Assembly (NCBI RefSeq): GCF_001528665.1
Contig: NZ_BBYJ01000038.1
Coordinates: forward strand, 1-64,000
Length of the DNA: 64,000 nucleotides
Reading direction: 5' to 3'
Source of the DNA: Microtetraspora malaysiensis
GTDB lineage: Bacteria; Actinomycetota; Actinomycetes; Streptosporangiales; Streptosporangiaceae
Position 1 is the first letter of the stretch. Each line of letters opens with the position of its first letter. Positions 34,054-61,862 of the stretch are shown here, piece by piece. The notes under the pieces were generated by a model that searched no databases, was not told where the DNA came from, and saw only the letters and a program-made list of their open reading frames with translations. Both the position numbers and the translations under genes were made by a program.

Positions 34054-34108
34054 GCTGGTGGCAGGTCCAGGGTTCGAACCTGGGTAGGCTGAGCCGACGG
34101 TTTTACAG
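34054..34108 (-). repeat. Left attachment site: truncated tRNA-Tyr copy
   Basis: 55 bp identical to the 3' portion of the intact tRNA-Tyr, from CTGTAAAACCG in the anticodon loop through the CCA end plus two bases (GC). Upstream of the anticodon the sequence (CACGCGACC on the plus strand) no longer matches and cannot pair as a tRNA 5' half, so this copy is not functional. Confidence 0.93.
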
Positions 34109-34176
34109 CACGCGACCTTTCCCAGCCGGCCATTACCTCTGACCTGCGGCGATCCTTGCCGTACGGCTCTCGCCGG

Positions 34177-34202
34177 CAAGATCATTGCATGCATATTGCA
34201 CG
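34177..34202 (+). promoter_or_regulatory. Left arm-type integrase site (candidate)
   Basis: Begins CAAGATCATTGCATGCATAT. A 26-bp motif at 61659-61684 inside the other end matches it at 22 of 26 positions (counted by hand), in the same orientation and about 70-90 bp from each core repeat. This is the arrangement of integrase or excisionase arm sites. The gap from 34109 to 34420 holds no gene. Confidence 0.65.
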
Positions 34203-34420
34203 GCGTGGTGATCAAGCTTTGGCTCGTGCGGCTCCGCGCGCGAATACCCTTTGGTATCAGTCCAAGATGCTGGCGAGTCGCCAGCCTTCGTAGTGGTGCT
34301 CAAGCTCGACCAGTCCCTGACCCGGACACCGACGACATCCTCACGATGCGACCGCTTGTCACACAGTTGGTCACGCAGCGATTCGCCTGCTGCAACGGTG
34401 CGAGGGAATCCCGGCGCGGT

Positions 34421-35200
34421 TCAGACCCGCCGGCGCCGTGGGGCTGGCCCGGAGTGCCGGTTTACCGCCGCGACCCGCCGCATCAGGTTCGGCTGGCTCG
34501 GGTCGTACAGCAGCCGCAGCGCCAGGCCGAGCATCTCCGCGCCCTCCAGGACGTCCTCGATCCCCAGGGACCCTTCGTGGCTGCCGGTGTTGCCGATCCA
34601 CTTGACTGCCATCAGCACCTGCTCCACCTGCGGTTTGCGCTGGGCGAACAACTCGATCCGCTGGTGGGTGGTGCGCCGCACCCGCTTGATCGGTTTGCCC
34701 GGCTTGGCCGCCATCCGGAAGCGCGGCACCCGCTGTGCGGTCAGCAACTCCTCTACGGCGACCCGTAGCCGTCCGGCCGCTCCCGCCGGGTCGATCCACA
34801 CGATCTCCGCCGCGACGCGACCGGCAGCGACAACCGACTCCGGCGTGCCGACCGGGCAGTCCACCAGCGTCAGTGCCGGCCGTGCGTAAGTGAGCCGGTA
34901 GAACGCCGCCCATGGCCCATTCTTCACCGGGTCCGGGTCATCGCCCACCCGGTAGTCGCCGGCGAGCACGACCGTCTCACCACAGCCGGCGTGCGCACAC
35001 ACCAGGAAGCCGGTGAACACGCCGGTGCTCCAGTCCGGCTCCCAGGCGTCGGGCTCCTGGGTCTTCGCGACACTGGTGGCCGCATCATCATGGGTGATGA
35101 ACTTTTGCTTCTTGACCAGGTGCCCATACTGGCATGTCGGGCAGCGCAGGTCCGGCGGCGCAATGAACTCCTGGGCGAGCGGCAGCAGCGGGTGAGCCAT
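34421..35200 (-). CDS. DUF4145-domain protein with zinc-binding N-terminus
   Basis: A 259-residue protein from ATG at 35200 (MAHPLLPLAQEFIAPPDLRC). A zinc-binding N-terminus (CPTC near residue 20-23, CAHAGC near 70) precedes the helical DUF4145 domain, with the typical RLRVAVEELLTAQRVPRF region and the KWIGNTGSHEGSLGIEDVLE motif near residue 210. DUF4145 is a HEPN-related helical domain often found in or beside restriction systems; its exact role is not established. It is the first gene inside the left end of the element and points toward the end. Confidence 0.82.
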   Translation of the reverse strand: MAHPLLPLAQEFIAPPDLRCPTCQYGHLVKKQKFITHDDAATSVAKTQEPDAWEPDWSTGVFTGFLVCAHAGCGETVVLAGDYRVGDDPDPVKNGPWAAFYRLTYARPALTLVDCPVGTPESVVAAGRVAAEIVWIDPAGAAGRLRVAVEELLTAQRVPRFRMAAKPGKPIKRVRRTTHQRIELFAQRKPQVEQVLMAVKWIGNTGSHEGSLGIEDVLEGAEMLGLALRLLYDPSQPNLMRRVAAVNRHSGPAPRRRRV

Positions 35201-35497
35201 GCAGGGCACCGTACCGCCGGCGACCACCGTACCGCGCACCTATATCCCGTTTGGACGGTCCGCCCGGCATTCGGCGACGGCCGCTTGTTCGGAGGCGCTC
35301 AAGCGGGGGCTACGGCGTCGGCGGACGACCCTGATTACCGATCCTCACCCCGGCTAGGAATCGCGATTACATCAAGCCTCCGCCATGGGAAGCCATTTGT
35401 TTGACGCAAGATTGTGCTGCCGCAGCGGAGCGACTCGGTTGGACATAGCTAAACCTCTGCCCGTTGGCCGGCACTAAAACTAGTGACTGGATCTCAC
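35201..35497. other. Gap upstream of DUF4145 gene
   Basis: About 300 bases with no gene seen. GC falls from about 35350 onward into the low-GC DUF262-Shedu gene, which may mark a recombination boundary. Confidence 0.4.
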
Positions 35498-36868
35498 TTA
35501 CGGGATCTGCGAAATTCCCGCCATCCACTCGGCACGGCTCAGTAGTTCGTCAAAAGTCACAATCTCGGGCTCAGTGATGCTCCGACGGTACAGTTCGAAG
35601 GAGACGAATTTGTCCTCGCGAACCCCGCCTCCTCCACTAAAAAGGTCCGCCAGTTGCCCAACGATAAGATAGGATCTCGGCCGTATGAGGTATGTTGCCT
35701 CTCCGGGAATAGCCGCTCCTTCTTCGTCGTGATCGTTAATTAGATTCCCTATGTGACGTACTGCGCGATGCACTGTCCCTTGTAATTGAGACACTCCTCC
35801 CGTCACATGCTTTGATGGAATCCAGCAGCCGGATCTATAAACATCCTTGTCAAGCAAGGCGGTTCTATGCGTTTTGAATTCAGCGAAGACCATCGAGCGT
35901 ATGCGGCCAGCAGTGCGCAAAAGCGCGTCTGTTCGCTTACCTACACCACTGATGGAGCTTCCAGTAACTGCCTGCTCAAGACGCGACGGATCCCAAGATA
36001 CAAGAAGTTGACCACCTAATGACGCACCGAGGATCCACGGGTTTTTCTCGAAGAACTGCTGCCAGACATCCTCGCCCCGCTTTCTAGCTGTCCTCGCAAT
36101 CGCCCTGTCGAAGCAGTTGTCATCTTCAAGATATTTCCGAAATACCGATACCTGCTCTCGTCGATGAGCGAAGGCAATTACGTCGTCTGCTGCCTTGTCC
36201 TCTGCAATGAGACGGCGAAATGGTTTTGGATTGCTCTGATAAAGAAAAGGAAGCAGAGATGCCGCGGCCTCCTTATCAAAAGAGAGGGCTGCCATTACTA
36301 TACCTTCTCGAACTACTGCGGACACGCCGTGCAGCCAAGAGAAAGCCTGCTGGAAGTCGTCTAAGTTTGGGCATGCGTCGAGTAGTCTTCTTCGCATGAA
36401 CTTATACGCGTCAGCCACGCGTCCCGTTGCGCCCACATCTCCATCACCCTCTATGATCGCAGTGAAGTTCGGGCGATCAGCTTGATGTGCCACGAGTCGG
36501 TAAGTTGTTTCGGCGTTATATGACTCAGCGTGCAGATACCTGCTGGTAATCGAGTCACCGATGGGCAACCCAATCAGTGACATATGGTCACGCATGGCAC
36601 ACAGCACTACGAGGAGGGTCATGATCCTCTGATACCCGTCGATCAGCCGAATCCTCATCGGCGACTCGTACCGATCCACCTCTAGTACTACGGATCCCAA
36701 AAAATAGTCTTTATGCGCTGACGGACTAGAAGCTCCGGCAGAAATCGTGTCCCATAGGGGCTGTATCTGCTTCGGACCCCATAAATACGGCCTATGGTCG
36801 TCCGGTACAACCAGCTGTACCGACGGGGAGATCAGGTGATCGATCGACATCACGCGCGCTTCAATCAC
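35498..36868 (-). CDS. DUF262-Shedu (DUF4263) fusion nuclease
   Basis: A 456-residue, low-GC gene. Residues 1-240 resemble DUF262/GmrS: VPDDHRPYLWGPKQIQPLWD (21-40), DYFLGSVVLE (54-63) and LIDGYQRIMTLL (75-86), where DGYQR replaces the usual DGQQR. Residues 262-456 match the Shedu nuclease domain: EDVWQQFFEKNPWILG (266-281), GKRTD with Asp314, FAEFK with Glu330 and Lys332, Gln361, then PRSYLIVGQ and the closing FELYRRSITEPEIVTFDELL. Shedu is a single-gene anti-phage nuclease with varied N-terminal sensors. A DUF262 front end links it to GmrSD-type nucleotide-driven restriction. GTG at 36868 follows GGAGG. Confidence 0.83.
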   Translation of the reverse strand: MIEARVMSIDHLISPSVQLVVPDDHRPYLWGPKQIQPLWDTISAGASSPSAHKDYFLGSVVLEVDRYESPMRIRLIDGYQRIMTLLVVLCAMRDHMSLIGLPIGDSITSRYLHAESYNAETTYRLVAHQADRPNFTAIIEGDGDVGATGRVADAYKFMRRRLLDACPNLDDFQQAFSWLHGVSAVVREGIVMAALSFDKEAAASLLPFLYQSNPKPFRRLIAEDKAADDVIAFAHRREQVSVFRKYLEDDNCFDRAIARTARKRGEDVWQQFFEKNPWILGASLGGQLLVSWDPSRLEQAVTGSSISGVGKRTDALLRTAGRIRSMVFAEFKTHRTALLDKDVYRSGCWIPSKHVTGGVSQLQGTVHRAVRHIGNLINDHDEEGAAIPGEATYLIRPRSYLIVGQLADLFSGGGGVREDKFVSFELYRRSITEPEIVTFDELLSRAEWMAGISQIP

Positions 36869-36944
36869 ATCGCCTCCAGCAGTAACGCCACAGACCGGAG
36901 GACGATCGTTTCACAGAAAGGAGGTAAGTTGAATACCCACAGCC

Positions 36945-36975
36945 AGCGTAAGAGCGTGTTTGAGAGCGTGTTTGA
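36945..36975. repeat. Short direct repeat before IS remnant
   Basis: AGAGCGTGTTTG occurs twice in tandem at about 36951-36974, shortly before the truncated IS5-family gene. It may be the outer end of that insertion sequence or its target duplication; no matching inverted copy is seen on the right. Confidence 0.45.
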
Positions 36976-37032
36976 GAAGGCGGTGCGGGCATCTCGCCGC
37001 CGTGACCACGGTCAGATCGCGATCATGGCTGG

Positions 37033-37616
37033 GTGCCCCTCGAACGCCGCTACCCCTCCGACCTGACCGACGCCCAATGGGCGCTGATCGAGCCGCTGCT
37101 TCCCGCGCCGAACACAGGCGGACGGCCCGAGAAGCACCCGCGCCGCGACATCGTGGACGCCGTCTTGTACGTAGTGCGGACCGGTTGCGCCTGGCGGCAG
37201 TTGCCGTTCGACTTCCCACCCTGGCAGACCGTGTACTGGTACTTCGTCCGCTGGGAAGAAGCCAAGGTCACCGAACAGATGATCGCCGTGCTGCGGCGCC
37301 GGGTCCGGGTGGCGCAGGGGCGGGCCGAGGAACCAAGCGCGGGCATCATCGACTCCCAGAGCGTCAAAGGCGCCGACACTGTCGGACGCGACAGCCGCGG
37401 CTACGACGCGGGAAAGAAGATCAACGGGCGCAAGCGGTTCATCGTCACCGACACCCTCGGGTTGCTGCTGGTCGTCTGCGTGATGGCCGCCTCCGTCCAA
37501 GACCGCGACGGAGCCAAGACCACCCTGCTCAGCATGTATCTGGTCACGCCGGTCCGGTACGTGTTCGCGGACGCCGGCTTCGCCGGGACGCTGGTGGACT
37601 GGACACAGAATACCTG
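37033..37616 (+). pseudogene. Truncated IS5-family transposase
   Basis: About 192 residues of an IS5-family DDE transposase from GTG at 37033 (VPLERRYPSDLTDAQWALIE), with HPRRDIVDAVLYVVRTGCAW then RQLPFDF. The first catalytic Asp is in AGIIDSQSVKGAD and the second in VRYVFADAGFAGTLVDWT. The sequence then leaves the family near 37607 and runs on into the leader of the next gene. The last catalytic Glu and about 70 residues are missing, so it cannot transpose on its own. It sits in the middle of the defence cargo and marks past rearrangement. Confidence 0.88.
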
Positions 37617-37710
37617 GATACCCGGGCATCCCCCTATTGCGGGTATCGCCAGAACGTGCCATCATCGCAATACCTCAATGAGAGGGTTCTCCCGTGTATG
37701 GAGGTATGCG

Positions 37711-38475
37711 ATGATCCACATCACGATGGGTGGCTGCAAGCCATGCCCCGCTGGCGACCCGCTCAACCGCAGCCAGCACGGCTACGCGCCAGAGATGACG
37801 CCGCATGAGATCTACGAGGCCAACCGCGGTTACTACGCCATTGGCGCCGAGGCAGAGACCCGCGAGCGGTACGCGATCTTCTCGGGCATTAGCGCCGCCG
37901 GCGAGCGGGCCGTCGTCCTCGCCGTCGAGATCGACAAGATCGTTCCGGTCCAGGTCCCCGGCAAGCCCGGCCGCAAGGCCATCGAAGGCCGCGTACTGGA
38001 GCCCGGACACCCCGTCTATGACGCCTACGTCGGTAAGCCGATAGAGGGCGCCCGCAACCCCGTCGTCTACCTCGAATCCCCATTCGACCTGCGGAAATGC
38101 GCGTGCAGGTGCGGTGAGATTTCACGCAGCACCTTCGTTCCGGGTCACGATCAGCGGGCGCTCCACGAGCGCATCGCCCAGATCGGGAACGTGGCCGAGT
38201 TCATCACCTGGTTCGACAAGATCTTCAGCACCGGCGGAGAGACGATCGGGCAGCATGCCGACCTGCAACACGGCCGGCCGCAGGCTACCCGCAACGACCA
38301 ATGGGGCCACGACAAGTACGACTGGCCCAACGGGCTTGGACTGTTCCTGTACGACGACGGTCGCATCAAGGTGGAACTCAAGGACGGTACCGTTACCGTG
38401 ACTGACGTCTCGAACTATGCGTCGGACGACAACCGCGGCGGCGCGCACATCATCGCGCAGTTCGTCCGGGCCTGA
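37711..38475 (+). CDS. Hypothetical protein of actinomycete islands
   Basis: A 254-residue protein. ATG at 37711 follows GGAGG with a 6-nt gap; the frame is also fused upstream to the IS remnant, but that is not the native start. Features are MTPHEIYEANRGYYAIGAEA, a Cys cluster with CKPC near the start and LRKCACRCGE near residue 130, FVPGHDQRALHERIAQIGNV near 145, and an acidic C-terminus. The GHDQRALHERI segment is familiar from uncharacterised proteins in actinomycete elements. No function can be assigned; the cysteines suggest metal binding. Confidence 0.7.
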   Translation: MIHITMGGCKPCPAGDPLNRSQHGYAPEMTPHEIYEANRGYYAIGAEAETRERYAIFSGISAAGERAVVLAVEIDKIVPVQVPGKPGRKAIEGRVLEPGHPVYDAYVGKPIEGARNPVVYLESPFDLRKCACRCGEISRSTFVPGHDQRALHERIAQIGNVAEFITWFDKIFSTGGETIGQHADLQHGRPQATRNDQWGHDKYDWPNGLGLFLYDDGRIKVELKDGTVTVTDVSNYASDDNRGGAHIIAQFVRA

Positions 38476-38791
38476 CGCCGCGACGTGGGCATTTCCGAGT
38501 GGCAAATGGAATGCAGCAGTGGTCGCCGGCCGACTCGGCGACGGAGGACCTCGAGTACTCGGACCCCTGTTATGCCAGTTCCTGGCCTAGCGGTTTTCAA
38601 GAGGGCTGCGTTCCGAGTGGCAACAGGGCCTCTCGCCAGGCAGAAGCACTCTTTTGGGCCCCAACCGTACAAGATCATCCCGCGTGTATCCCGCAAGGCC
38701 TATTGATCGGTCTCGGCGTGCTTGGCGTGCTCTTGTAGTCGACGTAGGCGGCGGTCGTACTGACCCGCGTATGACCTCTCGGCCTTGTCGC

Positions 38792-38953
38792 TCAACCCGT
38801 TTGCGGATCTGATGAATGCTCATAAAGCGTGGTCTCGAATGGATCACGGTCGTACTCGATCAGTTGGGCCAGCATCTTGCGGTCCTGTTCAGTCGCACAT
38901 CGACCCCGAACCTGTGCGCACCACCTTTCCGAGCTCGCCATAGCCTCGTCCAT
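38792..38953 (-). CDS. Possible small protein, 53 residues
   Basis: ATG at 38953 opens a 53-residue frame (MDEAMASSERWCAQVRGRCA, then TEQDRKMLAQLIEYDRDPFE). The composition looks like a helical protein and the frame is too short for ordinary detection. It lies 19 nt downstream of the 549-residue gene on the same strand. No family recognised. The rest of the 38476-38971 gap holds nothing else that I can support. Confidence 0.35.
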   Translation of the reverse strand: MDEAMASSERWCAQVRGRCATEQDRKMLAQLIEYDRDPFETTLYEHSSDPQTG

Positions 38954-38971: not shown

Positions 38972-40621
38972 TCATGACGAGTGTTTGGGAGGCGTGAAAT
39001 CGCTTAGGTCGACCAAAGTCTGCGCTGCCCGTGCGAGAAGGTCTTTGACAAACTCACTCTTTGTACGACCATCGAGCTGCTGGGCAATGAATTTATCGTA
39101 TGATGATCCCTTTGAATGTGCGCTAGCCTGGGATCTAATCGTTTGAATCTGGCGAAGTAAGGACACATCCCGATCCATGTGAGGATATTGCCAAAATGTC
39201 AACAATCGCTCAAGCTTACTGATCCCCTTCTCGCCTTCTGGACCCTTTCCGGTGACCGCTGTTATCCCCTTCTCATTGAGGAAGTCAACTAGCAATTTAG
39301 CAAGCGACAGAATCTGGTCTTCGAATTCTCGCTGTGATTCACTTAAGGGGGCGTGGAGACGCTCTATGAGCACTTTATCAACACTGTGAGGTTCTCTATA
39401 GAGCGGCCAATTGTTGCGTCTCTGCCACTCCTCGTTTAGGCGTTGATAAGCGCGCTTGAACTGATGCTCTGGCCCTTGCGCATCCACCCACTGACCTAAG
39501 AACGATCTGCGCATATTAGTATCGCTCATCGGCCCTTCAGGTGGAATGTTGAAACCCAGCCAGTAATTTCGCTCAGCTTCGGGCAGGTCTCGTCCGAGAT
39601 CTCCAAGAAAGACCATGACATAGTCTGGATGATCATTATCAACTCTGATTCCCCAGAGGCCTGCACACCGTAAGTAGCCATCCTGAACCTGGTACAGTTC
39701 AGGGTTTTCATAGTACTTTTGGAGGACCTCTCGTCGAAAGAAGACGGGGGTAAGATAATGCGGCGCATCCGGGTTCTTCCCGAAGTAGTTGCCGAGAGCC
39801 TCATAGTCGGATGTATAATTTCGAACAGAGCCGTCGTCGTTTTCGCCAATAATGAATTCCGGATAATTCTCAACGCGATTCCCGTATCCCAACACATTTG
39901 AAGCCTCAATGGAGGGGGGAGCGAAGAATTTCTTTGCCCGGAAAAGCGAAATCACTTTGCCGAGACCGCCTTCATCTCGGACGTGAACGAATCCCATTTC
40001 GCCTTGTTTGCGCCATTGAGTGTTGTGAGTAGTGTAGTCAGCATTCAAGTCTAGGTTTGCGTAGAGGTCAACCACCTCCACGTACAACCACATATCGAGC
40101 TGCTTGAGCGCCCGGTATCGGGCTAAATAGGACGTGCGAATGCGAACCGAATCATCGGTGACTTCGGCGACAAGCGTCTCACTGCCATCCTTCTCGGTGG
40201 CAATGAAATGTCCGCTAGCTTTATCTTCCCACAAATTGAAAACGAGGCGAAACTCTTCGCATAGCAGTGTTTGACCGAGGCGCTTGCCGTACTGCTCCGT
40301 AATAATGACGAGCGGCTCCCAGCCCTCATTATTTCCATACCGGAAATAATGAGTCTCTTGTCCCTTCTCGTAAGAAGTGATAGTCCCCGGTTGTCCGTCA
40401 CCGATACGGACGTCCCAGCTTTCGTCACCGAGGTACTGCTCACGCAGAGCTGGTGGAGCAAGGACAGAGAAGTATGCGCCGGAGTGATCCGTCCCGTACC
40501 CCCATGCCTTATAGACAAGAGTCCAAGCCTCTTTGCCGTGGGTCTCGAAAGCCGTCCGTGCATCGACTTGCTCTAGAGCTTTGATCTGCTCGTCCTTGAG
40601 ATCTCTTGGAGGATTGTTCAA
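38972..40621 (-). CDS. Unknown 549-residue protein with HEPN-like C-terminus
   Basis: A low-GC gene starting with TTG at 40621 (read MNNPPRDLKDEQIKALEQVD), preceded by GGGAG. Residues 1-410 form a large unrecognised region rich in Tyr, Trp and charged residues, with no membrane segment or P-loop. Residues 430-545 are helical and contain RQIQTIRSQASAHSKGSSYD, where R496 and H502 fit the R-x4-6-H signature of HEPN ribonucleases. This layout, a big sensor plus HEPN tail, is known in single-gene abortive infection proteins. Assignment is inference from one motif and context: it lies between an IS remnant and a type I restriction system. Confidence 0.6.
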   Translation of the reverse strand: MNNPPRDLKDEQIKALEQVDARTAFETHGKEAWTLVYKAWGYGTDHSGAYFSVLAPPALREQYLGDESWDVRIGDGQPGTITSYEKGQETHYFRYGNNEGWEPLVIITEQYGKRLGQTLLCEEFRLVFNLWEDKASGHFIATEKDGSETLVAEVTDDSVRIRTSYLARYRALKQLDMWLYVEVVDLYANLDLNADYTTHNTQWRKQGEMGFVHVRDEGGLGKVISLFRAKKFFAPPSIEASNVLGYGNRVENYPEFIIGENDDGSVRNYTSDYEALGNYFGKNPDAPHYLTPVFFRREVLQKYYENPELYQVQDGYLRCAGLWGIRVDNDHPDYVMVFLGDLGRDLPEAERNYWLGFNIPPEGPMSDTNMRRSFLGQWVDAQGPEHQFKRAYQRLNEEWQRRNNWPLYREPHSVDKVLIERLHAPLSESQREFEDQILSLAKLLVDFLNEKGITAVTGKGPEGEKGISKLERLLTFWQYPHMDRDVSLLRQIQTIRSQASAHSKGSSYDKFIAQQLDGRTKSEFVKDLLARAAQTLVDLSDFTPPKHSS

Positions 40622-41066
40622 TTGTTACTCCCGATGCCTGATGTCACGGATTACACGAGTGAGAGACTCCCTCAGTCTGCCAGGAGTGACCGACGCCGAG
40701 ACGCCGTACCGTATCCAGGGCCCGCGCAGTCGATCGTGTGCGACGCCGAGGGTCCGCTGATATCCGCCCGCGCCGGATCTGGGCATGGCCGCGGTGGTCC
40801 GGAGTGGCCCGATCCCGTGCAGCCTATGCGAGGCGGAGGTCGCCGAGGCTGCCTGACCTCTCGTTGCTCGCGCTTTGTGTCGGCCCCCTCCGCTACGGTG
40901 CGGGCGGGCCTGAAATTCCCCCTGATTTCCCGAGTACGCAGGAGGCCGAGGTGCGCGAAGATGGGCTTCATGACGCCCCGTCAGCGGACGTGCGTTGCCT
41001 TGCGAGGCGCGACTACCTCAGTGTCGGCGCAGCCATGCACGTTGAGTGATTCCTGTAAGGAGCCTT
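40622..41066. other. Divergent control region of 549-residue gene and hsdM
   Basis: About 445 bases without a gene. It must contain the promoters for the leftward unknown gene and the rightward hsdMSR operon. No operator pattern is evident. Confidence 0.4.
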
Positions 41067-42812
41067 GTGAGCACGCTCGGTAGTTTCATCTGGTCGATCG
41101 CCGACCAGCTTCGGGGTCCCTACCGCCCCAACCAGTACGGGAACGTGATCCTCCCGTTCACGATCCTTCGGCGCCTCGACTGCATCCTGGAGCCGGACCG
41201 CGAGACCGTCCGAGACCTGGCCGCGGCATACGAGAACCCGAACAGGCTCCGGATCGAGGTCAAGAAGGCCACCGGCCAGCCGTTCTACAACACCTCGAAG
41301 TACAGCTTCGCGAACCTTCTGAAGGACGCGGACGGGCTCGAGGACAACCTCGTCGACTACATCGACCGGTTCTCCGCCGACATCGACGTGTTCGAGTACT
41401 TCGACTTCAAGAAGCAGATCATCGCCCTGGAGAAGGCCGGTCTCCTGCGCGAGATCGTGAAATCCTTCGGCGCCGTCGACCTGCACCCCAATGTCGTGTC
41501 CAACGCCGACATGGGGGACGCGTTCGAGTACATCATCCGCAAGTTCAACGAGGCCGCGAACGAGACCTCCGGTGACCACTACACGCCGCGTGACGCGATC
41601 CGGCTGCTGGTCGACCTACTCTTCGCCGAGAAAGACGCCGACCTGACCGAGTCGGGCATCGTCCGAACGCTCTACGACCCCACCGCCGGCACCGGCGGCA
41701 TGCTCGCTCTGTCCGAGGAGCACCTGCTCGCACAGAACCCGGACGCCCGGCTGAGCCTGTACGGCCAGGAGTACAACCCGCAGTCGTACGCGATCTGCAA
41801 GTCCGACCTGCTCGCCAAGGGCCACGACGCGTCTAACATCGCCTTCGGCAACACGCTCACCGACGACGCCTTCAAGGGCCGCCAGTTCGACTTCTGCATG
41901 TCCAACCCGCCGTACGGCGTCGACTGGAAGCAGTACGCCAAGGCCGTCACCAAGGAGCGCGCCGAGGCCGGCCCATACGGCCGCTTCGCGCCGGGCCTGC
42001 CAGCCATTTCGGACGGGCAGATGCTGTTCCTGCTGCACCTGGTGCATAAGATGCGCGCCCCCGAGGACGGCGGCGGCCGGGCCGGGATCATCATGAACGG
42101 CTCGCCGCTCTTCAACGGCGCCGCCGAGTCCGGCCCCTCCAACATCCGCAAGTGGCTGCTGGAGAACGACCTGGTCGACGCGATCGTCGCGCTGCCGACC
42201 AACATGTTCTTCAACACCGGCATCGCCACCTACATCTGGATCCTCGACAACACCAAGCACCCCGACCGCAAGGGCCTGGTCCAGCTCATCGACGGCACCT
42301 CGTTCTGGACCAAGATGCGCAAAAACCTCGGCAACAAGAACCGTGAACTCAGCGACGCCGACCGCGCCAAGATCCTCCGTCTGTACGCCGACTTCACCGA
42401 CGCCGACCCCGACTACTCCAAGGTGCTGCGCAACGACGAGTTCGGCTACTGGACCATCACTGTCGAGCGGCCGCTGCTGGACGAGGACCGCAAGCCCGTC
42501 GTCGACCGCAAGGGCAAGCCGAAACCCGACTCCAAGAAGCGCGACACCGAGAACGTGCCCTTCACCTACGGTGGCTCGACCGCCGGCCCTGCGGGCAAGG
42601 CCGAGGTCATCCAGGCGTACTTCGACACCGAAGTGAATCCGCACGTACCCGACGCCTGGATCGACTGGGCTAAGGTCAAGGTCGGCTACGAGATCCCCTT
42701 CCCCCGCCACTTCTACAAGTACGTCCCGCCCCGCCCCCTCGCCGAGATCGACGCCGACCTGGAGAAGCAGGTCGCCAAGATCCTCAACCTGCTGAGAGAG
42801 GTGGAAGGGTGA
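41067..42812 (+). CDS. hsdM: Type I restriction-modification DNA methyltransferase HsdM
   Basis: A 581-residue N6-adenine methyltransferase subunit. The N-terminal HsdM domain is VSTLGSFIWSIADQLRGPYR. The AdoMet motif DPTAGTGG is at 204-211, the catalytic NPPY at 280-283, and the C-terminal part interacts with HsdS. With HsdS it methylates the recognition site; with HsdR it forms the restriction complex. GTG at 41067 follows TAAGGAG at a 6-nt gap. The stop overlaps the hsdS start (GTGA), so the three genes form one operon. Confidence 0.96.
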   Translation: MSTLGSFIWSIADQLRGPYRPNQYGNVILPFTILRRLDCILEPDRETVRDLAAAYENPNRLRIEVKKATGQPFYNTSKYSFANLLKDADGLEDNLVDYIDRFSADIDVFEYFDFKKQIIALEKAGLLREIVKSFGAVDLHPNVVSNADMGDAFEYIIRKFNEAANETSGDHYTPRDAIRLLVDLLFAEKDADLTESGIVRTLYDPTAGTGGMLALSEEHLLAQNPDARLSLYGQEYNPQSYAICKSDLLAKGHDASNIAFGNTLTDDAFKGRQFDFCMSNPPYGVDWKQYAKAVTKERAEAGPYGRFAPGLPAISDGQMLFLLHLVHKMRAPEDGGGRAGIIMNGSPLFNGAAESGPSNIRKWLLENDLVDAIVALPTNMFFNTGIATYIWILDNTKHPDRKGLVQLIDGTSFWTKMRKNLGNKNRELSDADRAKILRLYADFTDADPDYSKVLRNDEFGYWTITVERPLLDEDRKPVVDRKGKPKPDSKKRDTENVPFTYGGSTAGPAGKAEVIQAYFDTEVNPHVPDAWIDWAKVKVGYEIPFPRHFYKYVPPRPLAEIDADLEKQVAKILNLLREVEG

Positions 42813-44032
42813 CAGTTGTCCGGCAGATGGGTCCGACAAGGATCGACTGGTTGCAAGGGCTCTCACTTCCGCTCGACTGGTCCGAGTCGAAACTGAAGTA
42901 TGTCGCGCCCGGAATGCAGGCCGGCGAGGCGATCACCGCCGATTCGATCGAACCAACGGGGACCTATCCCGTCTATGGCGGCAACGGTCTTCGCGGCTAC
43001 ACCGAAGCGAAGACCCACCAAGGAACACACATCCTGATCGGGCGGCAGGGTGCGTTGTGCGGCAACGTGCATCTTGTATCGGGTGAGTTCTGGGCATCGG
43101 AGCACGCGATCGTTGCGCGGCCCGCGGCCACGGTCGAAGCTCGCTGGCTTGCTTATCTCCTGCAGGTGATGAACCTCGGGCAGTACTCCCAGACAGCTGC
43201 GCAGCCTGGCATCGGAACAGCGCAGATCAACGCCCTGGCTGTCCCTGTTCCGCCTTTCCAAGAGCAGCACGCCATCGCCGACTACCTCGACCGCGAGACC
43301 GCCCGCATCGACACGCTCATTGAGGAGCAGCAGCGTCTTATCGAGATGCTCCGCGAGCGGCGGGACTCGGCGTGGGCGGTAGCTGTTGACCAGGCTTATC
43401 AGTCTGGCCGAGAGGTGGAAGTGCGGAGAGTCATCACGTCAATCGTCGATGGTCCTTTCGGATCTTCGCTCACCTCGGAGCACTACTCGGACGAAGGCGC
43501 TCGTGTGATCCGGCTTGGCAACATCGGGATCAACGAGTTCAGGGATGCCGATGAAGCGTTCATTCCGCTTGAGTACGCCGACGAGCTCGGCGCCCACGAG
43601 GTGGAACGGAATGACGTAGTTGTTGCCGGGCTGGGCGATGACAAAATGCCGCTCGGCCGTGCCGCAGTGGTGCCCGACATCGGGCGTGCCATCGTGAAGG
43701 CCGACTGCTATCGCCTCCGCCCCAACCGGTTGGTCAGTTCGGAGTACCTCGCTTGGGTCATGTCAGCTCCACAGACGCGTTCGCAGATCATGCTGCTCGC
43801 ACGGGGTGCCACTCGCTTGCGACTAAACACCAAAGTTGTGCAGCAGGTGAAGGTTCCGGTTCCGGATCGGGAGGAGCAGGACGCACTGGTAGCTCAGTCC
43901 GTTGCCGAGACCTCGAAGATCGACGCGCTCATTGCGGAGACGAAGCGCTTTATCGAGCTCGCCCATGAGCGCCGCTCCGCACTGATCACGGCAGCTGTGA
44001 CGGGGCAGATCGACGTACACGAGGTCGCGTGA
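42809..44032 (+). CDS. hsdS: Type I restriction-modification specificity subunit HsdS
   Basis: A 407-residue specificity subunit with two target-recognition domains (about 15-150 and 205-345). They are separated and followed by the two conserved helices (DRETARIDTLIEEQQRLIEM, then LRERRDSAW; and KIDALIAETKRFIELAHERR). The first domain contains YGGNGLRGYTEAK and the second VDGPFGSSLTSEHYSDEGAR. The two domains set the split DNA target, which cannot be read from sequence. GTG at 42809 overlaps the hsdM stop; the TGATG at the end overlaps hsdR. Confidence 0.95.
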   Translation: MTVVRQMGPTRIDWLQGLSLPLDWSESKLKYVAPGMQAGEAITADSIEPTGTYPVYGGNGLRGYTEAKTHQGTHILIGRQGALCGNVHLVSGEFWASEHAIVARPAATVEARWLAYLLQVMNLGQYSQTAAQPGIGTAQINALAVPVPPFQEQHAIADYLDRETARIDTLIEEQQRLIEMLRERRDSAWAVAVDQAYQSGREVEVRRVITSIVDGPFGSSLTSEHYSDEGARVIRLGNIGINEFRDADEAFIPLEYADELGAHEVERNDVVVAGLGDDKMPLGRAAVVPDIGRAIVKADCYRLRPNRLVSSEYLAWVMSAPQTRSQIMLLARGATRLRLNTKVVQQVKVPVPDREEQDALVAQSVAETSKIDALIAETKRFIELAHERRSALITAAVTGQIDVHEVA

Positions 44033-47000
44033 TGGCCGATCACAATGAGGTCGTCTTCGAGACAGAGATCTGTGAGTACCTCGCGGCCCATGGCTGGCTG
44101 TACTCGGCGAACGACACCGGGTATGACCGTGAGCGGGCGCTGTTTCCCGAGGATTTGTTCGCGTGGCTGGAGGCGACGCAGAAGCTGGCGTACGAGAAGG
44201 CGTTGAAGGCGGCTGGGTCGCAGGCGAAGTTCCTCGATGTACTGACCACGGCGCTGGACAAGCCGCTGGAGCATGGCGGTGGGATGCTGAACGTCCTGCG
44301 CAGTGGGGTGCAGTACATCGGCGGTGGCCGGTTGAAGATGGCGCAGTTTCGTCCCGAGACATCGTTGAACGAGACGACGAACGCGCACTATGCGGCGATG
44401 CGGGTGCGGGTCATGCGTCAGGTGCATTTCTCGACGGCTGACCAGCGCAGCATCGACCTGGTGTTCTTCGTCAACGGGCTCCCGGTTGCGACGGTGGAGC
44501 TGAAGACCGACTTCACCCAGTCGCTGGACGAGGCAATCCAGCAGTACCAGAAGTACCGCAACCCGCTGACCAATGGTCGGCGCGAGCCGCTGCTGTCGTT
44601 CGGGCACCGGGCGCTGGTGCACTTCGCGGTCTCCAACGACCTGGCTGCGATGACCACCCGGCTGGAGGGGGAGAATACGCACTTTCTGCCGTTCAACACC
44701 GGCTTCGAGGACGGTGCCGGGAACCCGCCTGGTGCGGACGGGAGGTCGGCGACGGCGTACCTGTGGGAGCGGGTCTGGGAGAAGCACGCCTGGCTCAACA
44801 TCATCGGCCGGCTGATGATCGTGGAGACCAAGGAGGAGTGGGACGTCGCGACCGGCACGTCGGTGCGCCGTACGAACATGCTGTTCCCCCGGTTCCACCA
44901 ATGGGAGGCGGTCACGAAAATCGTGGCCGCCGTGGCTGAGGAGGGTGTCGGCCAGCGTTACTTGATCGAGCACTCCGCGGGATCGGGAAAGACGAACACG
45001 ATCGCCTGGACGGCGCACCGTCTCGCGCGGCTCCACGTCGATGATGAGAAGGTCTTCGACTCGGTCATTGTGGTCGTCGACCGCACGGTGCTCGACGGGC
45101 AGCTTCAGGACGCGATCCGGCAGATCGACGGTAGCGGGAAGATCGTCGCGACGATCAGCCCCGAGGACGTGCGCAAGGCCGGTGCGAAGTCGAAGTCCGG
45201 TCTGCTGGCGCAGGCGCTGAAGAATGGCGAGTTAATCATCGCGGTGACGGTGCAGACCTTCCCGTTCGCACTCGATGAGATCCGGGCCGACTCCAGCCTG
45301 AAGGGCAAGCGGTTCGCCGTCATCGCAGACGAGGCGCACTCCTCGCAGTCGGGGAAGATCTCCTCGAAGCTGAAGCAGGTCCTGACCGCAGAGGAGATCA
45401 AAGAGATCGAGGACGGCGGCTCGGTCGACGTCGAGGCGATCCTGGCCGCGGAGATGACCGAGCGGGCCGAGTCAAAGAACATCTCCTACTTCGCGTTCAC
45501 CGCGACGCCGAAGAACAAGACCATGGAACTGTTCGGCCGCAAGGGGCCGGACGGCAAGCCGCGCGAGTTCCACCTGTACTCGATGAAGCAGGCGATCGAG
45601 GAGGGCTACATCCTCGACGTGCTCAAGGGCTACCAGTCCTACGAAACCGCGTTGAAGATCGCCGGCAAGGCCGAGAGCGGCGACGGTGGCGAGGTCGAGG
45701 AGTCGGCTGCGCGCAAGGGGCTGATGCGGTGGGTGCAGCTGCACCCGACCAACATCAGCCAGAAGGTGCAGATCATCGTCGAGCACTTCCACGCCAACGT
45801 CGCCCACCTCCTGGAGGGCAAGGCGAAGGCGATGGTCGTCACCGACTCGCGCAAAGCCGCGGTGAAGTACAAGAAGGCGATCGACGCCTACATCGCCAAG
45901 CGGGCCGCCGAGGACGCGTCGTACAACTACCGGACCCTGGTCGCATTCTCCGGGTCGCTGTCAATGACCGAAAACGAGACGTGGAGCCAGGACTGGGGGC
46001 CGACGCCGTCGAAGGACGACGAGTTCACCGAGGCCAAGATGAACCCCGGAGCGGGCGCCGACCTGGCCGCCGCGTTCAAGGGCGAGACGTACAAGATCAT
46101 GCTGGTCGCCAACAAATTCCAGACCGGCTTCGACCAGCCGCTGCTCTCGGCAATGTATGTCGACAAGAAGCTCTCCGGGGCCACCGCCGTGCAGACGCTC
46201 TCCCGACTCAACCGAACCCACCGCACCGCCGGCGGAGAGCAGAAGGCCAAGACGTTCGTCATCGACTTCCTCAACAAGCCCGACGACATCAGGACCGCCT
46301 TCGAGCCGTACTTCACCAACGCCACCCTGGAGACCGAGACCGACCCGTACGTCGTCGTCCACCTTGCGAACAAGCTCGCCCAGGCAGGGATCTACACCGA
46401 GGACCAGGTCCGCCAGGTCGCCGAGCTGTGGGTCGCCCGCAAGGGCAACAACGCGCTCTCGGCGGCAATCAGCCCGGCCCAGCACGACTTCCGGCGTCGC
46501 TACGCGGCAGCGATCGAGGCCGAGGACAAGGTCACGCTCAACACCCTCGACCTCTTCCGCAAGGACGTCTCCACCTACGTGCGGCTCTATGACTTCATGA
46601 GCCAGATCGTTGACTACGGCGACCCGTACATGGAGATGCTCTCGATCTTCCTCCGGCTTCTGGAGAAGGTCATCGCCGAGTCCTCGTGGAGCGCCGACGT
46701 CGACCTTTCGGACGTGGTCCTGGTCGGTGTGAAGCACAACAAGGCAATCGCAGTTGACATCTCGCTGACCGGAGACGGCGAGCTGAAGGGGATCAGCGCA
46801 GCAGGCACCGGCACCAAGAAGGAGCCGAAGTACGTCGCGCTCCAGGTCGTCATCGACAAGATGAACGACCTCTTCGGTGCCGAGTCGTTCGCCGAGTCCC
46901 AGATCCGGGAGTTCGTGCAGGGGCTCGTGCAGCGACTGCTCGCCGACCCGGACTTGGTCCAGCAGACCCGGGTGAATTCGAAGAAGCAGTTCATGGAGTC

Positions 47001-47196
47001 GCAGGACTTCCAGTCCGCCGTCACCGAGGTCGTCGCCGACAACCAGGAGGCGCACAACACCATGGCTGACTACTTCTTCACCGACGGGCCTGCGATCAAA
47101 GGGATCATCGTGGCGCTCGCCGACGCGTTCTACGAGGCCGCGATCGACAAGGGGGCAGGGGGCCTTGCTCAGGATCTTGAGGTATCCCCTCACTGA
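44032..47196 (+). CDS. hsdR: Type I restriction endonuclease subunit HsdR
   Basis: A 1054-residue motor and nuclease subunit. The N-terminal nuclease has PD-(D/E)xK residues Asp142 and Glu156-Leu-Lys158 (SIDLVFF, then VATVELKTD). The translocase has Walker A HSAGSGKTNTI near 313, DEAH in IADEAHSSQ near 433 and motif III FTATPKNKTMELFG. Motif VI (LSRLNRTHR) lies near 725 and a helical C-terminus binds the methylase core. It cuts unmethylated foreign DNA far from the target after ATP-driven translocation. ATG at 44032 overlaps the hsdS stop. All motifs are intact, so the system is likely active. Confidence 0.96.
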   Translation: MADHNEVVFETEICEYLAAHGWLYSANDTGYDRERALFPEDLFAWLEATQKLAYEKALKAAGSQAKFLDVLTTALDKPLEHGGGMLNVLRSGVQYIGGGRLKMAQFRPETSLNETTNAHYAAMRVRVMRQVHFSTADQRSIDLVFFVNGLPVATVELKTDFTQSLDEAIQQYQKYRNPLTNGRREPLLSFGHRALVHFAVSNDLAAMTTRLEGENTHFLPFNTGFEDGAGNPPGADGRSATAYLWERVWEKHAWLNIIGRLMIVETKEEWDVATGTSVRRTNMLFPRFHQWEAVTKIVAAVAEEGVGQRYLIEHSAGSGKTNTIAWTAHRLARLHVDDEKVFDSVIVVVDRTVLDGQLQDAIRQIDGSGKIVATISPEDVRKAGAKSKSGLLAQALKNGELIIAVTVQTFPFALDEIRADSSLKGKRFAVIADEAHSSQSGKISSKLKQVLTAEEIKEIEDGGSVDVEAILAAEMTERAESKNISYFAFTATPKNKTMELFGRKGPDGKPREFHLYSMKQAIEEGYILDVLKGYQSYETALKIAGKAESGDGGEVEESAARKGLMRWVQLHPTNISQKVQIIVEHFHANVAHLLEGKAKAMVVTDSRKAAVKYKKAIDAYIAKRAAEDASYNYRTLVAFSGSLSMTENETWSQDWGPTPSKDDEFTEAKMNPGAGADLAAAFKGETYKIMLVANKFQTGFDQPLLSAMYVDKKLSGATAVQTLSRLNRTHRTAGGEQKAKTFVIDFLNKPDDIRTAFEPYFTNATLETETDPYVVVHLANKLAQAGIYTEDQVRQVAELWVARKGNNALSAAISPAQHDFRRRYAAAIEAEDKVTLNTLDLFRKDVSTYVRLYDFMSQIVDYGDPYMEMLSIFLRLLEKVIAESSWSADVDLSDVVLVGVKHNKAIAVDISLTGDGELKGISAAGTGTKKEPKYVALQVVIDKMNDLFGAESFAESQIREFVQGLVQRLLADPDLVQQTRVNSKKQFMESQDFQSAVTEVVADNQEAHNTMADYFFTDGPAIKGIIVALADAFYEAAIDKGAGGLAQDLEVSPH

Positions 47197-51980: not shown

Positions 51981-52319
51981 ATGCGCAACATCCCGATCCC
52001 CGTCGACGTCAGCCGGCTGTCCGTCTCCGTCGCCAAGGGTGCCCGGCCGCGCCTGGTGAGCAAGGAAACCGGAGAGGTCAAGCGGGACCGCGACGGCAAC
52101 GTCATGTACGAGGTCACCCTCATGGTTGAGGACGAGTTCGGCCGGATGGAGCTCGTCAAGGTCAGCATCACCCCGGAACCGCAGGTCTCGGCAGGGGACG
52201 AGGTGATCCCGGTCGGCCTGGTCGGCTACGTCTGGGAGCAGGCGGGCCGGTGGGGCATCTCCTACCGCGCCCAGTCCTTCACCCCGGTCACGGCCGCGGC
52301 CGGTGCGGGGGTGAACTGA
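51981..52319 (+). CDS. SCO3933-family regulatory protein
   Basis: A 112-residue protein (MRNIPIPVDVSRLSVSVAKG) with VSKETGEVKRDRDGNVMYEV and GLVGYVWEQAGRWGISYRAQ. It matches the small SCO3933-type proteins conserved directly before traB/ftsK in actinomycete integrative elements; their role is thought regulatory but is not defined. AAAGGA stands before ATG at 51981. The stop overlaps the start of the translocase gene (TGATG), so the two are translationally coupled. Confidence 0.85.
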   Translation: MRNIPIPVDVSRLSVSVAKGARPRLVSKETGEVKRDRDGNVMYEVTLMVEDEFGRMELVKVSITPEPQVSAGDEVIPVGLVGYVWEQAGRWGISYRAQSFTPVTAAAGAGVN

Positions 52320-53692
52320 TGCCCGACATCTCCCGGCCGATCCTGCTCGCCGTCGCCGCCCTGGTCATCCTGCTGGCCTGGCGGCGGTGGGCGCCGGTCT
52401 CGTACTGGTACCTGCTGGTCTTCCCACGCAAAGCGGTCTGGCTGCGCTGGTCCTGGCGGCACGTCGCCTCCGGCTGCGGGCTCACCAAAAAGCGGCACCG
52501 CTGGTGGTTCACCACCGTCCCCGGCCTGGTCGCCTCGACCGGCATCATCCGGGTCAAGCGCCGCTTCCAGCGGGTCGCCGTCGATACCAAGCCGTGGATG
52601 GGCCTGCCCCGCCCCGTACGGCACGGCTTCCGCATCACCTTCCACCTCCTCGACGGGCAGATCCCCGACGACTACGCCAAGATCTGCGACCGGCTGGCGC
52701 ACGCCTGGCGGATCGAAGCGGTCCGCGTGGTCGGCTCCCGGCCTGGACGGGTCACCGTGCAGGGGATCAACCGCGACCCTTTAGCGCACGTCGCCCCCGC
52801 GCTGGCTCCCGCTGAGCCTGCGGACGGCTGGCGGGCCGAGGACCTGCTACGGCCGGTGGTCGGGGTGCTGGAGACCGGCGCGGCCTGGCGGATGGATCTG
52901 CGGCTGATCCCGCACTGGATGAACGCCGGCGCGACCCAGTCCGGCAAGTCCAACCTGATCAACGCGCTCATCGTCGGCCTCGCGCCGCAACCGGTTGCCC
53001 TGGTCGGGTTCGACCTCAAAGGCGGGGTGGAGCTGTCGCCGTACGCACAACGGTTGACCGCCCTGGCGACGACGCGCGGGGAGTGCCTGGAATTACTGGC
53101 CGACCTGATCGCGGTCATGGGCGCCCGAATGCTCGCCTGCCGCCGCTACAGGGTGCGTGACATCTGGCAGCTCCCCGACGGTGCGCGGCCGATCCCGGTC
53201 GTGCTCCTGGTGGACGAGGTGGCCGAGCTGTTCCTGACCGCCGACAGGGCCGAGAAGGACCAGGTCACCCAGACGGCTACCGCGTTGCTGCGGATCGCTC
53301 AGCTCGGGCGGGCGTTCGGCATCCATCTCGTGCTGTCGGGTCAGCGGATCGGCTCCGACCTCGGCCCTGGCGTGACCGCGCTGCGGGCGCAGATCGGCGG
53401 CCGGGTCTGCCACCGGGTCAACGATCCGGAAACCGCGGTGATGACGCTCGGGGACCTCGACCCCGACGCGCTGGTTGCCGCCCGCTCGATCCCACCGGAG
53501 CTGCCCGGGGTCGCCGTGGTCACCGGGAGCGATGGCCGCTGGTGCCGGGCCCGTTCCGGCTACGTCTCGACCTCGGCGGCGGAGCAGGCCGCTGAGACCT
53601 ACACGGCCGTGACGCCGTCGTGGTCACAGGTCGCCGCCTCCGGCCTCGGCCACGAGCTTCCGGCGAACGGCAGTCCCGAACTCGCCGCCTGA
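52319..53692 (+). CDS. TraB/FtsK-SpoIIIE-like DNA translocase
   Basis: A 457-residue protein. One or two membrane segments lie near the N-terminus (ILLAVAALVILLAWRRWAPV). The FtsK motor domain has Walker A GATQSGKSN at about residue 207, LVGFDLKGGVELSPYAQRL, Walker B PVVLLVDEVAELF near 297 and a sensor QRIGSDLGPGVTALRAQIGG. In actinomycete elements a single TraB-type FtsK protein moves double-stranded DNA between hyphae at the membrane. It looks intact. ATG overlaps the stop of the upstream gene. Confidence 0.93.
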   Translation: MPDISRPILLAVAALVILLAWRRWAPVSYWYLLVFPRKAVWLRWSWRHVASGCGLTKKRHRWWFTTVPGLVASTGIIRVKRRFQRVAVDTKPWMGLPRPVRHGFRITFHLLDGQIPDDYAKICDRLAHAWRIEAVRVVGSRPGRVTVQGINRDPLAHVAPALAPAEPADGWRAEDLLRPVVGVLETGAAWRMDLRLIPHWMNAGATQSGKSNLINALIVGLAPQPVALVGFDLKGGVELSPYAQRLTALATTRGECLELLADLIAVMGARMLACRRYRVRDIWQLPDGARPIPVVLLVDEVAELFLTADRAEKDQVTQTATALLRIAQLGRAFGIHLVLSGQRIGSDLGPGVTALRAQIGGRVCHRVNDPETAVMTLGDLDPDALVAARSIPPELPGVAVVTGSDGRWCRARSGYVSTSAAEQAAETYTAVTPSWSQVAASGLGHELPANGSPELAA

Positions 53693-53724: not shown

Positions 53725-54246
53725 ATGAGCATGACCGTGTCCCGCCTGGCGCTGCGGCTGGCCGACTCCGGGCCGGTCATCGTCCTGGCTGCCATCGCCG
53801 GGGCCGGCAGCTTCACCCACATCCGCGACACTGCCGCCGCGAGCGGACAGAGCGGCTGGATGGCCTGGGCGGTGGCGGTCTGCGTCGACCTCACCTGTGT
53901 CATGGCCGCTCGGGAACGCCATCGGGACAAGAAGACCGGACGCGTCCGGCGGGGCTGGGTGTCGTGGCCGACGCTCATCCTCGTCGCCGGGATCGTCCTG
54001 TCCCTGGCCGCCAACCTCCACCAGGCCGACCCGACTGTGTGGGGCTGGCTGACCGCCGCAACCCCCGCCGGGGCGTTCCTGGTCGCGGTCTCGATGCTGG
54101 AGCGCCGGGCCATAGTGCCAACACGGTCAGACGCAAGCGGGCCGTGCTGCATGCGGTGCTCGAGTACGCCGTGGAGCTGGAAGAGCTTCCAGCCAATCCG
54201 CTACACCGGATCAAGTGGAAGCCGCCGAAGACGACCGAGACGGTAG
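53725..54246 (+). pseudogene. DUF2637 membrane protein, truncated by fusion
   Basis: ATG at 53725, after AGGGAG, opens a DUF2637 protein (MSMTVSRLALRLADSGPVIV) with membrane spans at about 16-30, 45-60, 88-103 and 110-125. The family sequence ends near LERRA (about 54113). After that the frame continues 44 residues into integrase DNA in the wrong frame. DUF2637 proteins normally run on with a cytoplasmic, often HTH-bearing, tail and sit between traB and rep in these elements. The break marks one side of an internal deletion. Confidence 0.85.
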
Positions 54247-54914
54247 ACCCCCGTGTCGTGATCAACCCGCGGCAAGCTCACGAACTGCTGACCGCAGTGA
54301 CCTACGTGGGCAAGCGCGGCCGTGGCCGGCGACTCATGGCGCTGTTCGCCTGCATGTACTACGCGGCACTGCGTCCAGCCGAAGCAATCGCCCTGCGCAA
54401 GGAAGACTGCGACCTCCCAGCGACCGGCTGGGGGCGCCTCCTGATCGACGTCTCCCGTCCCGAGGCCACTAGGCAATGGACGGACACCGGCGATGCACAT
54501 GAGCAACGCGGGCTCAAGCATCGAGGTCGTGACGATGTCCGGCCTGTGCCCATCCCACCGGCTCTGGTCGAGATCCTTCGGCAACACATCAATCAATTCG
54601 GCCTTGGCCCCGACGGGCGGCTCTTTCAAAGTGAGCGCGGCGGGGTAGTCGCCTCGACGGCCTACACGGAGGTGTGGCAGGAAGCACGCAAGCTCGCCCT
54701 CACGCCTGCCCAGGTCGTCTCACCACTTGCGCGCCGACCGTACGACCTCCGTCACGCGGCCGTTTCGCTCTGGCTCAACGCGGGCGTCCCGGCCCCTGAG
54801 GTGGCCGAGCGGGCGGGCCACAGTGTGGACGTCCTCCTACGCGTGTATGCCAAGTGCCTCGACGGCCATCAGAAGGTCGCCAACCGGCGAATCACCGACG
54901 CCCTAACTGCCTGA
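54114..54914 (+). pseudogene. Tyrosine integrase, N-terminus deleted
   Basis: The frame begins inside the core-binding domain (ANTVRRKRAVLHAVLEYAVE, then LPANPLHRIKW) and continues through a complete catalytic domain. The first Arg is in YAALRPAEAIALR, the Lys in LKHRGRDDVR, the second Arg in RRPYDLRHAAVSLWL, and the His and nucleophile Tyr in RAGHSVDVLLRVYAK. About 100-150 N-terminal residues that bind arm sites are missing. No start codon or ribosome site stands at the junction with DUF2637, so expression and function are doubtful. Confidence 0.9.
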
Positions 54915-61775: not shown

Positions 61776-61830
61776 GCTGGTGGCAGGTCCAGGGTTCGAA
61801 CCTGGGTAGGCTGAGCCGACGGTTTTACAG
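61776..61830 (-). repeat. Right attachment core repeat
   Basis: 55 bp identical to 34054-34108, spanning the tRNA-Tyr anticodon loop to two bases beyond the CCA. It is part of the intact tRNA-Tyr gene. Confidence 0.93.
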
Positions 61831-61862
61831 ACCGCTCCCTTTGGCCGCTCGGGCAACCTGCC
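61778..61862 (-). tRNA. tRNA-Tyr (GUA), intact
   Basis: 85 nt including encoded CCA. The acceptor GGCAGGT pairs with ACCTGCC. The D-arm is CCCGAGCGGCCAAAGGG, the anticodon stem-loop ACGGT-type around CTGTAAA gives GUA, the long variable arm is CGGCTCAGCCTACC, and the T-arm is CCAGGTTCGAACCCTGG. It is class II, as expected for tyrosine. The 3' 53 nt are shared with the truncated copy at the left end of the element. Confidence 0.95.

Follow-up and report, generated by a model that had tools for sequence, protein, structure and literature searches.

What does a DUF262 domain do when it is joined to a nuclease other than the one it usually accompanies, and could it still act there as a nucleotide-driven sensor? 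The question is raised by one gene in the 64,000-nucleotide stretch of Microtetraspora malaysiensis DNA analysed here (hereafter the window). A preliminary description had read the gene as DUF262 and Shedu (DUF4263) in one chain, perhaps coupling NTP-dependent sensing of modified phage DNA to a Shedu cut, and had asked whether the DUF262 part hydrolyses nucleotide or only binds it. Shedu proteins with varied N-terminal sensors, an ATPase included, are already known according to the consulted part of PMC12137116. No report of a DUF262-Shedu fusion was found among titles and abstract openings, or in the consulted parts of PMC12137116 and PMC12839542; Gu et al. (2025, Mol Cell) and Loeff et al. 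(2025, Cell) may list a DUF262 class.

The gene product, P0001, is encoded by an uninterrupted open reading frame of 456 codons with a GTG start, four bases 5' of which a GGAGG was read by eye in the sequence (Table 1). The GC content of the gene is 0.528, against 0.659 for the window. The one-chain architecture was borne out by Pfam, which placed GmrSD_N (PF03235, DUF262) at residues 16-144 (E 4.6e-15, profile positions 8-112 of 199) and a complete SduA_C (PF14082, DUF4263) at residues 266-443 (E 6.6e-31, positions 4-159 of 159), both above the curated cut-offs. In agreement with this, the best PADLOC family is SduA (E 1.4e-97, residues 208-450), while the N-terminal part is matched by the DUF262-type families Orf5, HEC-06 and SspE. 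GmrSD_C, the DUF1524 HNH nuclease (PF07510), has no match in P0001 up to E 1. The residues named in the preliminary description, Asp314, Glu330-x-Lys332 and Gln361, are all present: E330, K332 and Q361 are invariant in the 34 aligned Shedu proteins, a list that does not include D314, which is itself invariant in 15 of 15 aligned Shedu C-terminal parts. Two solved Shedu structures, 8ti8 and 8ps4, which we take to be the B. cereus and E. coli proteins, are matched by profile A4 (E 6e-26 and E 7e-10), and P0001 alone as query finds 8ti8 at E 3.8e-8. The presence of a PD-(D/E)xK core in the C-terminal part is thus supported at the level of sequence.

Table 1. Features of the fusion gene and of the integrated element that carries it (window coordinates)
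Feature	Coordinates	Strand	Basis
DUF262-Shedu fusion gene, 456 aa, GTG start, GC 0.528	35498..36868	-	ORF, Pfam
DUF262/GmrSD_N (ParB-like) domain, residues ~1-203, ends just before FxxxN segment	36260..36868	-	Pfam, alignments, AF2 fold
Motif I: HR (H25-R26) replaces QR	36791..36796	-	Alignment, census
Motif II: DGYQR (residues 77-81) replaces DGQQR	36626..36640	-	Alignment, census
Shedu-type linker, residues 204-262, at place of ordinary DUF262 FxxxN segment	36083..36259	-	Alignments; aligns to 8ti8
Shedu PD-(D/E)xK nuclease domain, residues 263-456 (D314, E330, K332, Q361)	35501..36082	-	Pfam, alignments
55-bp perfect direct repeat, one element end	34054..34108	.	
Second 55-bp repeat copy, overlaps tRNA-Tyr 61778-61862 (-)	61776..61830	.	
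Phage-type integrase of element	53964..54914	+	Pfam Phage_integrase
FtsK/SpoIIIE-type protein of element	52250..53692	+	Pfam

The place where the two parts meet was located from both sides. The eight closest of the first ten Shedu relatives have residues ~191-210 to ~450 in common with P0001 at 46-59% identity, the other two being 36 and 41% identical, and the N-terminal parts of these relatives differ from that of P0001. Ordinary GmrSD proteins, most of them members of the same bacterial family, match P0001 from its start onwards with 30-36% identity (BLAST), and these matches end at residues 158-203. In multiple alignments the DUF262 homology reaches ~200 and stops just before the FxxxN segment, after which the Shedu linker follows. 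The preliminary description had assigned the first 240 residues to DUF262; the domain is real, but its extent has to be shortened, since residues 204-262 already belong to the Shedu linker. The full chain was analysed in alignment A9 and the N-terminal part in A7, while the mixed MAFFT alignments A1, A5, A6 and A8 were set aside because their N-terminal rows were wholly or partly misplaced.

Structure prediction, which the preliminary description had called for, points in the same direction for the N-terminal part. The AF2 model of the full chain is of too low a confidence to be used (pLDDT 48.3, pTM 0.32), whereas that of residues 1-210 alone, predicted from a 15-row alignment, reaches pLDDT 75.7 and pTM 0.75. 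With this partial model Foldseek returned only six PDB chains at E <= 0.001, all of them SspE or DndI, the next match lying at E 1.1. VIA-align scored DndI at Z 21.1 over 201 residues (DndI 5-229) and SspE at Z 18.4-18.7, with BrxU at 6.5 and ParB below 5. Given that the DUF262 domain of DndI comprises residues 1-238 (PMC11662687, consulted in part), nearly the whole DUF262 fold would be present in P0001, without its last strip. The N-terminal part is accordingly predicted to fold as DUF262, although the alignment behind the model consisted of DUF262 proteins and so biases the prediction towards this fold.

The family search likewise suggested by the preliminary description yielded one further DUF262-DUF4263 fusion among 341 family genomes. 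This protein, L106, comes from another genus of the same family (genome G952), is 48% identical to P0001 over P0001 residues 6-454 (47-48% overall) and has the junction at the same position. The fusion is not a one-off. Pfam finds in L106 a GmrSD_N (E 9.3e-13, profile positions 4-166 of 199) and a complete SduA_C (E 3.8e-33), with no match to PF07510 up to E 0.01, and the GC content of its gene is 0.521. Identity between the two proteins rises along the chain, from 30% (residues 1-100) and 23% (101-203) to 44% (204-262) and 63% (263-456). Two trivial explanations of the P0001 locus were rejected on these grounds: a chance open reading frame, in view of two strong domain matches and a full-length second copy, and an assembly chimera, in view of the same junction in another genome.

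The arrangement appears rare in the sets that were searched, which overlap. When both proteins were run against 345 genomes of the order (E <= 1e-20), only P0001 and L106 themselves came back at full length; in the 297 relatives, 394 class genomes and 396 phylum genomes screened before, the window's own copy was the sole such match. Among the gathered loci, 78 with the N-terminal part and 59 with the C-terminal part, the only open reading frames having both are copies of these two proteins. None of the 263 matching plasmid records covers at least 80% of P0001, and none of 151 does so for L106; no full-length fusion was found in phage records, which gave two weak partial matches, or in the viral contigs reached by pattern scans.

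How far the fused domain departs from its ordinary counterparts was assessed in a census of 48 distinct DUF262 domains, based on a domain profile from alignment A3 (P0001 and ten ordinary domains). The census omits loci L071-L094, which had been found with a VVDGQQRL and QR pattern search; an earlier DGQQR tally of 66 out of 67 was dropped as biased, because the search had used that pattern. Outside those loci lie 54 of the 79 open reading frames with an N-terminal match, all 54 of which passed the score and start filters, and removal of duplicates by the first 120 aligned residues left 48. QR, DGQQR and FxxxN (FxxxNxxG) occur together in 46 of 46 ordinary domains, and in neither of the two fused ones. 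P0001 carries HR and DGYQR, the latter at residues 77-81 as previously noticed, L106 carries GR and DGQNR, and the FxxxN segment is absent from both.

The divergence extends beyond these signatures. Thirty columns reach 95% conservation or more among ordinary domains; of these, 17 persist in P0001, 16 in L106 and 13 in both. Nine of the thirty lie past the junction, in the FxxxN segment, so that before the junction the figures are 15/21 for P0001 and 14/21 for L106, and eleven of these 21 columns (P22, R26, Y28, W30, F56, G58, D77, G78, R81, A91 and D131) are kept in both. Eight hand-picked divergent ordinary domains, each excluded in its turn, retain 29-30 of 30-33 conserved columns, a figure that refers to all columns and not to the 21 before the junction. 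Identity to the same reference is 32-51% for these eight controls, and 31% and 29% for the fused domains.

Residues of characterised relatives allow the losses to be read in functional terms. In SspE, GTP docks at D96 and R100 of DGQQR together with K40, and modification is sensed through Y30/Q31 (PMC9646914, consulted in part); in DndI the sensing residue is Y25 (PMC11662687, likewise). HMMER alignment places SspE D96, R100, Y30 and Q31 at P0001 D77, R81, D24 and H25, so that the phosphate-pocket Asp and Arg are kept, and alignments with both SspE and DndI show the sensing Tyr-Gln replaced by D24-H25. SspE K40 corresponds to Q34, which is uninformative because ordinary relatives mostly have Gln there too. 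For BrxU, the gamma-phosphate was modelled at D98, Q100, Q101 and R102, and an RLFDS motif was tied to nucleotide binding (PMC8565348, consulted in part); we infer that the FxxxN segment is this motif. P0001 thus keeps D77, Q80 and R81, has Tyr at the Q79 position and lacks the FxxxN segment, which sharpens the question of hydrolysis against mere binding, as far as residues can indicate it.

We propose that P0001 is a one-protein DNA nuclease of the Shedu family, whose N-terminal regulator would be a DUF262 domain taken over from a GmrSD-type restriction enzyme of actinobacteria. By analogy with the Shedu family, its target would be phages or other invading DNA; by analogy with other Shedu proteins and with SspE and DndI, the DUF262 part may hold the nuclease in check, and the binding of a ligand to it would release the cut. 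The ligand step is more likely to be the binding of a nucleotide (or DNA) than a hydrolysis cycle in the manner of SspE and DndI, because the phosphate pocket retains its Asp and Arg while the glutamines and FxxxN are gone. That a captured DUF262 regulator gates a Shedu nuclease non-canonically, perhaps through nucleotide occupancy, and directs it at invading DNA is a reading to which we give slightly better than even chances, the gating itself being inferred from the related systems. Such a gate fits the residues better than an NTP-driven sensor of modified DNA would.

The strongest competitor is a type IV-like restriction activity, in which the DUF262 part would hydrolyse NTP, recognise modified phage DNA and so license the Shedu cut. 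DUF262 is coupled in this way to DUF1524 nucleases in GmrSD, BrxU, SspE and DndI (consulted parts of PMC9646914, PMC11662687 and PMC8565348), and with D77, Q80 and R81 kept in P0001, hydrolysis may survive. A Shedu core can moreover stand in a restriction-modification setting, as indicated by a locus described below (L007) in which it follows the front part of a type II restriction enzyme, beside a C5-cytosine methyltransferase and Vsr. However, the Tyr-Gln with which SspE and DndI sense modification has become D24-H25, and the QR, DGQQR and FxxxN consensus is lost in both fusions, through different substitutions in each. In GrwA and GrwB, by comparison, the consensus is kept and defence is lost when R is replaced by A in the DUF262 part (PMC12137116, consulted part). 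Motif loss and the replaced Tyr-Gln weaken the case for an NTP-driven sensor of modified DNA, which finds no support in the form originally suggested and which we regard as unlikely.

It could also be supposed that the DUF262 part is no more than a passenger in decay, with the linker and nuclease doing the work of an ordinary Shedu. The strong divergence of the N-terminal part and the loss of conserved columns agree with decay, but both open reading frames are intact in two deeply diverged copies, eleven of the 21 pre-junction conserved columns persist in both (D77, G78, R81, R26, Y28 and W30 among them), and the predicted fold matches DndI 5-229, so this reading appears rather less probable still. 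An integrated decoy, in which the DUF262 part would imitate a restriction enzyme and, once bound by a phage anti-restriction protein, release the Shedu nuclease, would suit a restriction-enzyme front with degenerate motifs that lacks its own nuclease, in a host whose genome also has a complete ordinary GmrSD gene (contig C16), but it is very improbable, as the open reading frames of the DUF4928-Shedu locus, inspected by eye, showed no separate intact copy of the corresponding enzyme, which makes the piece found there look like the enzyme itself.

The origin of the fusion was followed in two trees. In that of the Shedu C-terminal parts (30 rows), P0001 and L106 are sisters with support 97/96, and their terminal branches measure 0.46 and 0.39 where the median is 0.3; the tree omits L040 (motif not found by the script), the fragments L043, L051 and L052, the frame L108, the distant L041 and L097, and L099-L103. 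To the N-terminal tree each locus contributed one row if its match had E <= 1e-12 and 150 residues or more, which gave 66 rows for the 78 loci. Here too the fusions come out together (89/90, a value that the tool does not star), nested among GmrSD domains of their own bacterial family (92/87). Their branches there are long, 2.28 and 2.11 with a median of 0.16, and those of five other rows (L087, L077, L088, L079 and L069; four viral, one from the phylum) measure 2.15-3.44. Branches that equal or exceed those of the fusions mean that rapid change is not theirs alone and make the N-terminal tree unsafe; the tool itself warns about long branches. The simplest reading is one fusion event followed by fast change of the sensor, and as only two fusions, sisters, are at hand, the motif loss may be one historical event.

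Other Shedu proteins carry different domains in the same place. A Pfam scan of 34 of them, which preceded the finding of L106, identified in front GmrSD_N once (P0001), AbiJ_NTD3 twice, DUF4928 once and SduA_N once, with weak matches to three further families, one member each. The AbiJ_NTD3 cases, L038 and L039, are on Streptomyces plasmids. In genome G074 of the same family (L007/L104), DUF4928 (profile positions 1-129 of 306; PADLOC type II restriction enzyme, 11-142 of 331) precedes a Shedu part 55% identical to that of P0001, with genes for a C5-cytosine methyltransferase (E 1.9e-38) and for Vsr (E 9.4e-19) alongside it at L104:6625-10112; no second full-length protein of this type was found in 197 class genomes. 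Separate genes for the two functions also occur side by side: at L105:1206-4327 a complete GmrSD gene is divergent from an ordinary Shedu gene, and on a Dietzia plasmid (L042) an ordinary Shedu gene adjoins a DUF262-HNH gene. PF07510 is present in L013, L002 and L105.

With the Shedu proteins of known structure (8ti8, 8ps4), P0001 shares the complete SduA_C, the catalytic residues, the linker region and the single-gene layout, but its N-terminus is DUF262. With GmrSD, BrxU, SspE and DndI it shares the predicted DUF262 fold up to the domain's last few residues; unlike them it has no DUF1524/HNH, departs from the QR, DGQQR and FxxxN consensus and has a PD-(D/E)xK Shedu as cutter. The DUF4928-Shedu protein resembles it in the Shedu part and in having a piece of another restriction enzyme in front, but that piece is DUF4928, in a locus with its own methyltransferase and Vsr. 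VcSduA, a type I-D Shedu, likewise places a nucleotide-binding-fold domain before the nuclease, but there it is a GHKL ATPase with conserved motifs, whose mutant E27A loses defence, whereas the NTPase consensus of P0001 is broken (PMC12137116, consulted part).

The fusions constitute a natural experiment on the widespread DUF262 domain, in which the same predicted fold is attached to a different nuclease and three signature motifs are lost together, while the phosphate-contacting Asp and Arg and much of the conserved core are retained. If the fused domain still gates the nuclease, the usual hydrolysis cycle would not be an essential part of DUF262 regulation. Taken with the DUF4928 case, this gives a hint that different defence systems exchange Shedu cores as cutting modules. 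A bolder version, in which Shedu cores are swappable cutters behind restriction-enzyme fronts and DUF262 has become a non-hydrolysing nucleotide-occupancy gate that unleashes the cut when infection shifts the nucleotide state, is speculative and probably goes too far.

The P0001 gene lies inside an element integrated at tRNA-Tyr (34054-61830) and bounded by 55-bp perfect repeats, between which a GntR-type regulator is also encoded. BLAST of the window's open reading frames against 19.5 kb around L106 matched the fusion, a GntR-type regulator (36-38%), a protein weakly like the window's FtsK (23%, itself without a Pfam match) and short weak stretches. The regulator and the weak FtsK likeness suggest a mobile element at L106 too, and no conserved partner gene common to both loci was seen in that comparison; with no other neighbour clearly shared, the fusion looks like a one-gene system. 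P0001 is the only Shedu gene of the host genome, whose one other GmrSD_N gene, that on C16, encodes an ordinary GmrSD (GmrSD_N and GmrSD_C) with DGQQR; of the DNA-sulfuration genes that accompany phosphorothioate readers such as SspE and DndI, DndB (PF14072) was looked for and not found there. In 34100-38800 no promoter-like site was seen, and terminator-like sites were near chance.

Several neighbours within the element deserve mention in their own right. Just downstream of the fusion gene and on the same strand, 34421-35239 (-) encodes a DUF4145 protein (GC 0.698) with a weak PADLOC match to PD-T7-4. On the other side the gene is adjoined by an IS5-family transposase frame, 37033-38475 (+), apparently a broken copy, in which the family match runs only to position 185 of 258, the rest of the frame having no further match to the family. 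A 549-aa protein at 38972-40621 (-) (GC 0.508; no Pfam, PADLOC or NCBIfam match) is possibly an unknown defence gene; it matches 11 plasmid records and is hypothetical in the eight listed. A type I restriction-modification operon (hsdM, hsdS, hsdR) occupies 41046-47196 of the same element, and a 722-aa protein of low GC (0.514) at 55208-57376 (+), without Pfam or PADLOC match, matches eight plasmid records, annotated as 'restriction endonuclease' in six, hypothetical in one and 'N-6 DNA methylase' in one.
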